Below are positions 55,924-64,000 of a stretch of 64,000 bases of DNA, piece by piece. A model generated the notes under the pieces. The model searched no databases. It saw nothing but the letters and a program-made list of their open reading frames with translations, and was not told where the DNA came from. Source of the stretch: Methanocorpusculum parvum (GTDB taxonomy: Archaea; Halobacteriota; Methanomicrobia; Methanomicrobiales; Methanocorpusculaceae); assembly GCA_015063085.1 (NCBI GenBank), contig SUTD01000005.1, positions 1 through 64,000 of the forward strand, in the 5' to 3' direction. The translations under genes were made by a program, and so were the position numbers. Position 1 is the first letter of the stretch. Every line of letters starts with the position of its first letter.

Positions 55924-56120
55924 CCACGCAGACGCAGCCTCCGGCTGCAGCGACCAGTCGCTCTCGCCTGACGGCGAGCTGCTGCCGCAGCCGCTTTGTG
56001 GTCGCTTTAGAAAAGATTGTGGAGTTATCTTTGGCAACGCCAAAGCGGCTGCGGGAGCAGCTCGCGAGTGAAGCGAGCGAGAGCGACGCGTTGCTGCAGC
56101 CGAAGGCTGCGTCTGCGTGG
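55924..56120. repeat. Large imperfect palindrome (arms about 78-80 bp)
   Basis: 55924-56001 and 56040-56120 are long imperfect inverted repeats around a loop of about 39 bases. Both arms carry CCACGCAGACGCAGCC (C/T variants follow), GTCGCTCTCGC, CGAGCTGCT and CCGCAGCCGCTTTG in inverted order. GC content is far above the flanks. It could be a structured RNA, a MITE-like insertion or a cruciform-forming site. The two mirrored reading frames across it are by-products of the symmetry. Confidence 0.75.
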
Positions 56121-56189
56121 TCTGCGGTTTTTCCAAAGGAATCCAAAGCCTAAGAGAAACCCTCCACCAAATAAAAAAAGAAGAGAGAA

Positions 56190-61063: not shown

Positions 61064-61591
61064 AATCCTATCTTAGAAGGAATATATGTTTCAATGTATG
61101 ATAAATGTCTCTGAGACACAGACTTCTTGTGTATTTCAGACACAGTGCCAACCAGATATTTGGAACACGAATCCGCACGAATCAAAACGAATCGCATCCT
61201 CTTCGGCGCCGGCTTTTTCTGCTTATCGCAGAGCCGGCGCACGGATGCTTGCGCCCTCGCAGTCGGCTCGGGCGGTGAAAATAAGCTCAAATTTGCCCGA
61301 GCCGACTGCGAGGGCACTAGCGTGCCGCGGCTTCCGGCGATAAGCCGGAAAAGAAGCCGTGTATAGGCACGCGATTCGTTTTGATTCGTGCGGATTCGTG
61401 TTCCCTGAATAAGGATGGAGAGGGGAAAATACTGTTCGAAAAATCCGGGTGGTGAAATTCTATTTTTTTAGGGCTGTAATGTATTTTCAGATATCAAAAT
61501 ACCATCTCCATTTTTCAATCAAAATGTCGGCAAAATACTTATTTTTACAATCAAACCCATTTTTGGATTCAATTCCTTCTAAGATAGGATT
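61064..61591. mobile_element. Nested inverted-repeat element (MITE-like) of about 528 bp
   Basis: Three perfect inverted-repeat pairs are nested. Outer 20-bp ends: AATCCTATCTTAGAAGGAAT (61064-61083) with its complement at 61572-61591. Middle 34-bp arms: 61162-61195 with 61371-61404. Inner 21-bp arms: 61253-61273 with 61295-61315. Between middle and inner arms further imperfect symmetry is present (for example GCGCCGGCT/AGCCGGCGC near 61206-61240). The middle arms contain CGAATC three times at 10-base steps. No transposase frame is inside. It lies 79 bases from the surface-protein start. Non-autonomous element or large regulatory palindrome. Confidence 0.7.
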
Positions 61592-61669: not shown

Positions 61670-64000
61670 ATGACAATGAAAACAAAGAAAACACTGCATC
61701 GTTTTGCAGCGGTGGCGGCTGTTCTTCTGGCGTTCTGTCTGGTGTTTGCAACACCGGTTGGGGCGGCTGAAGTAACCGGTGGAACCGGTGAAGCGTTGGC
61801 TAATGCTATCTCATCTGCAGGTGCAGGTGAGACAGTTACGCTGACTGAAGATGTTACTGTTTCACAGGGTATTATTCTTACTAAGGATGTTACCATTAAT
61901 CTTGAGGATCATAAGATAACCTACGATGGAGATGACGTTCTCTTCACAGTAAATGCAGGAAATCTCACCATCAATGCAGGTAAATCTGGTGAAATTATCA
62001 GTTCTGGTAAGCGTATTATTGAATTGGACACTAAGGAACCTGCAAGTTTAACCGTGATTGGTGGTACATATTCTCAGGAGGGTGATTCCTCAAATGCAGT
62101 ATTTGTTATTTCACTTGATAGTTACTGTGAGAAGAAAAGTACTATAACTGATGCAACAATTTTATGTAATTATAATTGTTTTGAGGTTAGTGGATATGCT
62201 GATGTAACCCTTGAGGATTGTGTTATCAGCACAACTAAAGAGGTCCCTTCCACATCAGGTTATTTGCATGCTATTATCGCAAGTTATGGAGGAACAGTAC
62301 ATGTCAAGGGCGGTTCTGTAACAAGTGAAGGAATTGCACTTGCCTCTTTCCATACCAATGGTAAAATTACTGTAGAGGATGCTACTATCACTGGCAGTGC
62401 GGCTGCATTACAGGCAATGCCTGCAGATTCTACAACAGATGAATATCCATATAAGACAGGTAAATCATCTATTGTTGTATCTTCTGGAACTGTAAATGGA
62501 CCAATTACAACTAAAGAAGTTAAGATTGATGAGTCTACTTTAGCATACGATGCAGGTTCAGGCGGTACTACTACTATTGCAATCAAGGGCGGTACTTTCA
62601 CCGTATCTGACGCTGATTCTCTGAAGACCATCATCAACGCTCTTGCAGACGATGGTGACGGCAAACCAGAGACCAGACCTGTTATTCAGATTGCCGGTCC
62701 CATCACCGTCGAAGAACAGCTTGAGATTAGAGCCCCGGTGAAGATTGTTGGTGATGGAGATACCAAGCCGACTATCACTTGCTCTGTAAAGAAACTTTTC
62801 GAAGTTCATGCAAATGCAGACTTTAAGAACCTGGATCTGGTAAACAATGCATATGATGGACGCTGTATTGACACCCGTGTTGGCGGCATTACTGTCAACA
62901 TTAACGACTGTGAGCTGACGGCAACAAACAAGGGTTCATATTATACTCAGCCTTTAACCATTGGTGGAAGCGGAATAGATGCTTCTGGAAATAAAGCTGC
63001 TAACATTGTCGTTAATCTCAACAAGGTTAACATTGAAGCAAAGCATTATGGTATTATCACATACAATCCAGTAGATTTAACAATTACTGATTCATCGATT
63101 ACTGGTTATGCTGCACTCTATTTCAAAGGACCTGATAGTTCTGTTGGTTCTAGTGGGTCTATAGTAAAAATCAATGGTAAATCTACAATCAAAGGTATTA
63201 ATTCTGCCTCCTTAGATCCAAGTAATGCATTTGGTACATTTGTTTTCGAAAGCGGCGGTGTTGAAGTTACATTAAATGATGCTGATGTTGCTCATGCCAT
63301 CTCTAATACAGGCAATTCACAGCATATTTTCTCATTCTATCGTTCAACAGGAAACACAGTTACCATTAATTCTGGAGTAACTATGTCTGCAACAGGTGGC
63401 AGTGACTACTTTGTTAGACCATATCAGGACATTGCTGGAGATAATCAGAATACAGTTATCACCAATGCAGGTGTAACCTCTAACTTCCCGATTGACTCCA
63501 AGTACCTCGCAGATGGATGTGAATGTGTTGGTTCTGGAAATTCCTGGACTGTTCAGATTCAGACATTCTCCGTTCAGTTTGATTCCAAAGAAGGAACAAC
63601 TGTTGGTAGTAAGAGTATTGAGTATGGAAATCCAGTTGTGAGACCTGCTGACCCGACCAAAGAAGGATACACCTTTGCAGGGTGGTATCTTGATGAGATG
63701 TTATACGACTTTACCACTCCGGTAACTGACGACATCACGCTTACAGCAAAGTGGAATAAGAATGGAGAAGCTGTCACCGTCACTCCAACAATTTCGGTTG
63801 AAATTACGGTTGACCAGAACAGTCAGACCACTATTTGTGTCCCTGCTGAAGATGCAGCCACCACTGTAGAATTCAGTGATCCTGAAAATGCTGCTCCGGT
63901 CGCAGTAATCACTGACAAGACCACTGGTGTTCAGATGGAGGTCACCTTTGCTGAGGGTGCAGAGGAAATGACCGATGGTAGTGTTAGCGGAACTGTCACC
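61670..64000 (+). CDS. Large secreted surface protein, adhesin-like (partial, runs off the window)
   Basis: At least 777 residues, no stop before the window end. An N-terminal signal peptide (MKTKKTLHRF, then a hydrophobic stretch to TPVGA-A) fits Sec export. It is followed by repeated short beta strands rich in T, G, V, N and D (VTLTEDVTVSQGIILTKDVTINL; LTIND-like patterns), suggesting a parallel beta-helix. An InlB/Listeria-Bacteroides repeat spans about residues 632-695 (GYTFAGWYLDEMLYDFTTPVTDDITLTAKWN). Such proteins decorate the cell surface and may bind hosts or partners. GAGGTC precedes ATG 61670 by about five bases; ATG 61676 is an alternative. A TATA-like AATACTTATT lies near 61524-61533. 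Confidence 0.85.
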   Translation, partial: MTMKTKKTLHRFAAVAAVLLAFCLVFATPVGAAEVTGGTGEALANAISSAGAGETVTLTEDVTVSQGIILTKDVTINLEDHKITYDGDDVLFTVNAGNLTINAGKSGEIISSGKRIIELDTKEPASLTVIGGTYSQEGDSSNAVFVISLDSYCEKKSTITDATILCNYNCFEVSGYADVTLEDCVISTTKEVPSTSGYLHAIIASYGGTVHVKGGSVTSEGIALASFHTNGKITVEDATITGSAAALQAMPADSTTDEYPYKTGKSSIVVSSGTVNGPITTKEVKIDESTLAYDAGSGGTTTIAIKGGTFTVSDADSLKTIINALADDGDGKPETRPVIQIAGPITVEEQLEIRAPVKIVGDGDTKPTITCSVKKLFEVHANADFKNLDLVNNAYDGRCIDTRVGGITVNINDCELTATNKGSYYTQPLTIGGSGIDASGNKAANIVVNLNKVNIEAKHYGIITYNPVDLTITDSSITGYAALYFKGPDSSVGSSGSIVKINGKSTIKGINSASLDPSNAFGTFVFESGGVEVTLNDADVAHAISNTGNSQHIFSFYRSTGNTVTINSGVTMSATGGSDYFVRPYQDIAGDNQNTVITNAGVTSNFPIDSKYLADGCECVGSGNSWTVQIQTFSVQFDSKEGTTVGSKSIEYGNPVVRPADPTKEGYTFAGWYLDEMLYDFTTPVTDDITLTAKWNKNGEAVTVTPTISVEITVDQNSQTTICVPAEDAATTVEFSDPENAAPVAVITDKTTGVQMEVTFAEGAEEMTDGSVSGTVT

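Follow-up and report, generated by a model that had tools for sequence, protein, structure and literature searches.

The 64,000-nucleotide stretch of DNA analysed here (positions 1 to 64,000 of contig SUTD01000005.1 from Methanocorpusculum parvum), hereafter called the window, ends within a gene for a secreted, adhesin-like surface protein with a signal peptide and a List_Bact_rpt/Flg_new repeat (61670-64000, plus strand, running past the window end). Upstream of this gene lie three nested inverted repeats: an outer 20-bp pair (AATCCTATCTTAGAAGGAAT; 61064-61083 and 61572-61591), a middle 34-bp pair (GGAACACGAATCCGCACGAATCAAAACGAATCGC; 61162-61195 and 61371-61404) and an inner 21-bp pair (GCCCTCGCAGTCGGCTCGGGC; 61253-61273 and 61295-61315). 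When checked base by base, all three were perfect, as a preliminary description of this DNA had stated, and none could be extended by a single base in either direction. Its description of a single 528-bp palindrome held for the nesting of the repeats but not for the whole, since symmetry is strong within 61162-61404 and there is little of it between the outer 20-bp arms and this core.

In 64 kb, chance alone would produce about 3e-5 perfect 20-bp repeats within 600 bp. Moreover, the DNA fold of the 243-nt middle part has a predicted energy of -111.4 kcal/mol, compared with -47.4 +/- 3.7 kcal/mol for shuffled sequences (z = -17.3). The predicted fold, a 37-bp stem bearing three hairpins, amounts to a four-way junction, and it is in this modelled form, for the 243-nt core, that the cruciform suggested in the preliminary description survives. 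Although the source genome (G000; 1.40 Mb) is a draft assembly of 36 contigs, about 80% complete, these values leave an origin by chance, as a plain terminator or as an assembly artefact scarcely conceivable, and the recurrence of the feature in several genomes, described below, already refutes it. An Rfam search of the window element matched no family. Taken together, the analyses make it probable that the 528-bp feature consists of two nested elements: a segment bounded by inversion sites, with a mobile palindrome inside. Of the three readings initially offered for it (MITE, invertible segment and cruciform), every one suits a single layer of this arrangement, and none suits the whole 528 bp.

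The inner element (61162-61404, 243 bp) is a gene-less, GxxExxY-associated palindrome of the ACGAATC-repeat family. Read from left to right, it is made up of the left 34-bp arm, which contains three direct repeats of (A)CGAATC (plus strand), a hairpin module X with a GCTTATCGC loop that is swappable among copies (61196-61248, plus strand), the left and right 21-bp central arms (plus and minus strand, respectively), a hairpin module Y with a GCGATAAGC loop (61320-61370, minus strand) and the right 34-bp arm (minus strand). When the 528-bp sequence was used to query its own genome, it yielded 30 matches, nearly all onto 61155-61415. The inner palindrome is dispersed: its own Methanocorpusculum genome has about ten relatives, and four sister genomes also contain matches, so that the possibility, raised at the outset, of arms absent from any other locus proved false. 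Examination of the stretches around each copy showed that the aligned copies agree in their GGAACACG ends, in the three CGAATC direct repeats per 34-bp arm and in their GCCCTCGCAGTCGGCTCGGGC central arms; the two hairpin modules (loop GCTTATCGC) vary by exchange from one copy to another. Terminal inverted repeats common to dispersed, gene-less copies, as in a MITE, are therefore found in the inner palindrome with its GGAACACG ends; the 20-bp ends, to which the MITE reading had originally been attached, behave as inversion sites. A second gene-less palindrome, from another family, is present in the window at 55924-56134. It matches at 78% over 234 bp the palindrome inside the putative switch at G018:C5, and its family has GxxExxY-bearing relatives (L105 and L106) in G002.

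In the case of one full-length relative (G000:C19:179577-180327), the same arms (147 bp, 92.5%) lie 500 bp apart with an open reading frame between them. This is a GxxExxY gene, seated between the two central arms, whose product matched TIGR04256 (2.8e-37, 127.6 bits; cut-off 35) and PF13366, a PD-(D/E)XK family (8.7e-37, 126.5 bits; cut-off 22), making it a clear member of the GxxExxY family with its catalytic residues intact. The GxxExxY residues and the catalytic D, E and K of the nuclease motif were invariant in 14 sequences, and PF13366 matches number 15 in the window's own genome and up to 18 in relatives. The full-length relative encodes only this protein: in the place where a MITE would have an autonomous relative with a DDE-type transposase, and a REPIN a RAYT (Y1 HUH) partner, the gene between the arms belongs to PF13366, and no transposase was found inside any palindrome copy examined. 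A sequence search found no solved structure of a GxxExxY relative. In the literature searched, the name GxxExxY appears in two papers, both times only incidentally, with no element or function described, and a search for GxxExxY elements or Methanocorpusculum MITEs returned nothing relevant.

The association of the gene with arms extends well beyond this copy. The loci examined contain 44 distinct GxxExxY sequences, and 25 of them are flanked by inverted arms that lie no more than 350 bp away on either side. Solitary GxxExxY genes of the genus are flanked by arms of 38-242 bp in 25 of 28 cases, a class that was defined after convergent pairs without arms of their own had been seen and that leaves out 16 genes which are members of such pairs, belong to the same subfamilies or lie at contig edges. 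Arms were found around 2 of 172 control open reading frames, one of them itself a GxxExxY gene, which reduces the count to 1 of 171. Protein identity correlated with the number of shared arm 8-mers (Mantel r = 0.75, p = 1e-4, n = 23), although the inclusion of orthologous loci inflates this correlation. Among 23 GxxExxY loci sampled outside the genus, from several archaeal families, 11 had inverted arms, and many of these arms consist of brief direct repeats (CACAAAG, CACAGAT or CGCGGAGA, for example). The arms and the gene-less copies together suggest a job for the GxxExxY nuclease family.

The convergent pairs, in which two GxxExxY genes from two subfamilies flank 1.4-9 kb of cargo, were seen at six loci: L091, L092, L093, L095 and L096 (contigs C31, C13, C14, C5 and C25 of G000, respectively) and L103 (G018:C7). 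Their cargo includes DpnI, a type IIG restriction enzyme-methyltransferase, a cytosine methyltransferase with two unknown genes, an HSDR_N protein, a lipoprotein and zinc-ribbon/TPR genes. Such pairs look like a composite, defence-carrying form.

Comparisons of occupied and empty sites bear on the mobility of these palindromes. In the single-contig genome G014 (1,804,962 bp), which we take to be M. labreanum Z, one family comprises three copies with GxxExxY and numerous gene-less ones some 150 bp long. For one GxxExxY-bearing element there, the matching intergenic site is empty in G016, G011, G003 and G013, with ragged junctions. In the window's own family, the site is occupied at G018:C8, which reads TTACTTGAG-AAACACG...CGTGTTC-CTCGAGTAAGGAC, and empty at G007:C24, which reads TTCCTCGAGTAAGGAC. 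TCGA/CTCGAG at both G018:C8 junctions gives a putative duplication of 4-6 bp, ambiguous in length; it comes from one cross-species comparison, and an excision scar would resemble it. Older insertions have ragged junctions, and clean target duplications in M. labreanum-type copies were rejected because the junctions there are ragged. Two further arrangements were observed. At L143 (11349-14140, in G014), a 2.8-kb insertion consists of two palindromes around a gene for a 593-aa DUF4062 protein, and the site is empty in G016. At L164 (G000:C19 210682-210741), the left flank of the GxxExxY copy recurs elsewhere in the genome. The repeated part stops precisely where the element begins and is followed there by the right flank of a different copy, which looks like either a target used by both or an empty site produced by recombination.

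We propose that the 243-bp palindrome belongs to a mobile palindromic element as one of its non-autonomous copies. The complete element would run from one arm through the GxxExxY nuclease gene to the inverted arm, with each arm composed of three short direct repeats, a hairpin module and a GC-rich central arm. Most likely, the PD-(D/E)XK nuclease would recognise the arms, perhaps when extruded as a four-way cruciform, and cut to start movement, while gene-less copies would move in trans. The inner element would then behave as MITEs and REPINs do, except that a nuclease takes the place of the expected transposase. Alternatively, the inner palindrome might be an ordinary MITE or REPIN moved by an unrelated transposase, with GxxExxY as a mere passenger; the MITE-like terminal inverted repeats, the gene-less copies and the putative 4-6 bp duplication would all suit this, as would the other genes found between palindromes (DUF4062 in G014 and the restriction-modification genes of the paired form). 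We consider it unlikely, since no examined copy contains a transposase and GxxExxY lies between arms at 25 loci whose arm sequences are unrelated, with arm similarity tracking the protein; arms surround it in other archaeal families as well. As to the nuclease reading in its general form, we put forward, tentatively and at somewhat less than even odds, that GxxExxY defines a class of mobile DNA in which the nuclease would act on its own palindromic, direct-repeat arms, possibly as a cruciform, and would spread gene-less copies in trans, with a paired, two-nuclease form carrying restriction-modification or other cargo.

Among described systems, REPIN/RAYT (TnpA-REP) provides the nearest analogue of palindromes moved in trans (PMC3116915, PMC8266576). 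In both, a genome contains many short palindromes that are non-autonomous, and a related partner with a gene is proposed to act on them in trans, but the inner element here is 243 bp long with a three-hairpin fold, as opposed to paired REPs, and its partner, encoded between the arms, is a GxxExxY protein of the PD-(D/E)XK type rather than a Y1 HUH transposase. MITEs likewise have gene-less copies with terminal inverted repeats and longer gene-bearing relatives, and the putative 4-6 bp duplication would match their short target duplication; here, however, the longer relatives are without a transposase, and the element is palindromic over most of its length. A small selfish element with one short open reading frame is also known from 23S rRNA intervening sequences, as in Coxiella, although that frame encodes an S23 protein and sits in rRNA (PMC4990558), whereas the copies described here are intergenic and associated with a nuclease.

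Turning to the outer layer, the two 20-bp sites have the form TCCT-N8-AGGA and lie just upstream of the adhesin-like gene, which we propose they control: the left, gene-distal site is on the plus strand and the right, gene-proximal site on the minus strand, and G002 and G018 have a matching pair at the orthologous locus. There, in G002:C23 and G018:C5, the segment precedes the same adhesin-like gene in the orientation seen in the window and holds a different inner palindrome, of the CACAGACCACACAGACGC type. Orthologous conservation as part of a known gene leader had been named in the preliminary description as a sign against its reading; the segment is kept at the orthologous locus in two relatives, but these loci carry a different inner palindrome, so the segment is not a fixed leader structure.

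Paralogous segments were identified at G000:C19:80944-81536 and G000:C19:262227-262765, together with segments that have similar paired sites at G018:C6:111071-111293, which has no inner palindrome, and at G002:C63:3121-3372. When the N8 cores of these four loci and of the window segment (61064-61591) were compared, they matched at both ends in all five loci (40 of 40 bases) but differed among loci; other pairings of the cores reached at most 36 of 40 (1 of 120 permutations). Such within-locus matching would be maintained by site-to-site recombination, or by pairing, and would not result from the independent decay of transposon ends. The five loci have the inverted repeats with an identical crossover core at both ends that characterise invertons, and they have the intergenic position upstream of genes of phase-variable type (adhesin-like, with signal peptides); the paired or flipped segments described are upstream of signal-peptide surface proteins. 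The perfection of the 20-bp ends and the occurrence of related segments at several loci might lead one to read the whole 528 bp as one MITE with 20-bp terminal repeats. This is very improbable, and the candidate was rejected, because the cores covary within loci while differing between them, unlike independently diverging transposon ends, and homology runs on beyond the sites. In addition, inner palindromes occur without 20-bp ends and the G018:C6 segment without an inner palindrome, and no empty site with a target duplicated precisely outside the 20-bp ends was seen at the loci examined.

A TATA-like ATATAT lies just inside the left site, at the ‘A end’ of the segment (61083-61088, minus strand), and reads outward. 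An outward ATATA(T/G) just inside one site is found in six segments (the window, C19_262, C19_81, C35_32, G018:C5 and G018:C6) and may be the segment promoter. Comparison of two paralogs bears on the orientation of the segment. In C19_81 the gene-side flank abuts a segment end without ATATA, whereas in C35_32 a homologous gene-side flank (100 of 134 positions identical to that of C19_81) abuts the ATATAGG end, and this end is closer to the far end of C19_81 (88 of 124) than to its gene-side end (64 of 120). Because homologous flanks abut opposite segment ends, the segment appears flipped between the two paralogs, although C35_32 is without a far site and may be a decayed or rearranged copy, which weakens the case. 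Opposite orientations were seen only between these paralogs, the orientation in G002 and G018 being that of the window. We propose that the approximately 530-bp segment ahead of the adhesin-like gene is, or was at one time, inverted by a site-specific recombinase, and that, with a TATA-like sequence at one end, the segment would switch expression on in one orientation and off in the other; in the window as assembled, this end faces away from the gene, so that the predicted state is OFF. On sequence evidence, the outer sites fit an invertible segment, or inverton, rather than transposon ends, and the earlier suggestion of an invertible segment applies to these sites, through core identity within pairs, differences between loci and the flipped paralog, and not to the element as a whole.

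Pairing, as noted, would likewise keep the two ends matched, and the adhesin gene could instead be regulated without any inversion, with the sites serving as operators for a protein or as the paired arms of a stem in RNA or DNA. Such a role would be in keeping with the resemblance of the motif to a dyad that is conserved at the ribosome-binding site of S-layer genes, but we hold it to be rather doubtful in view of the flipped paralog, and a stem spanning 500 bp with a variable, replaceable interior makes an unlikely leader. The dyad in question (AATCCTAATTTAGGAGGAAT), which resembles the outer 20-bp sites, is conserved genus-wide over the ribosome-binding site of S-layer-type genes (L024 3709, L205 2141, L206, L214-L222, L048 and L049); given this similar single motif, the outer site might be a leader element. 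As for a recombinase that could invert the segment, the window's own genome has three tyrosine recombinase (PF00589) genes, one of which adjoins a similar, possibly related S-layer site. This candidate was set aside as the invertase, since it adjoins such a site only in G000 and, at 51% identity, in G004, and no tyrosine recombinase was found there at seven other loci examined.

The proposed inverton resembles those of gut bacteria, such as fimS and the Bacteroides switches, in that inverted repeats enclose an intergenic stretch the size of a promoter beside a gene for a surface protein (PMC11892184, PMC4747536). It differs from them in its archaeal host, in being itself invaded by palindromic elements and in having a recombinase that is only a candidate. 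A genome-wide inversion survey found no inversions in six archaeal data sets (PMC5903667). There is hardly any record of invertible switches ahead of surface genes in archaea, and the five loci with matched cores provide named sites in Methanocorpusculum. For GxxExxY, a widespread nuclease family with no function found described in the literature searched, the link to palindromic arms and gene-less copies, to sites that are empty in other genomes and to restriction-modification cargo makes a role directly testable. The window superimposes the two layers, with mobile palindromes landing in a putative surface-gene switch, and the same putative switch holds different palindromes in different species.
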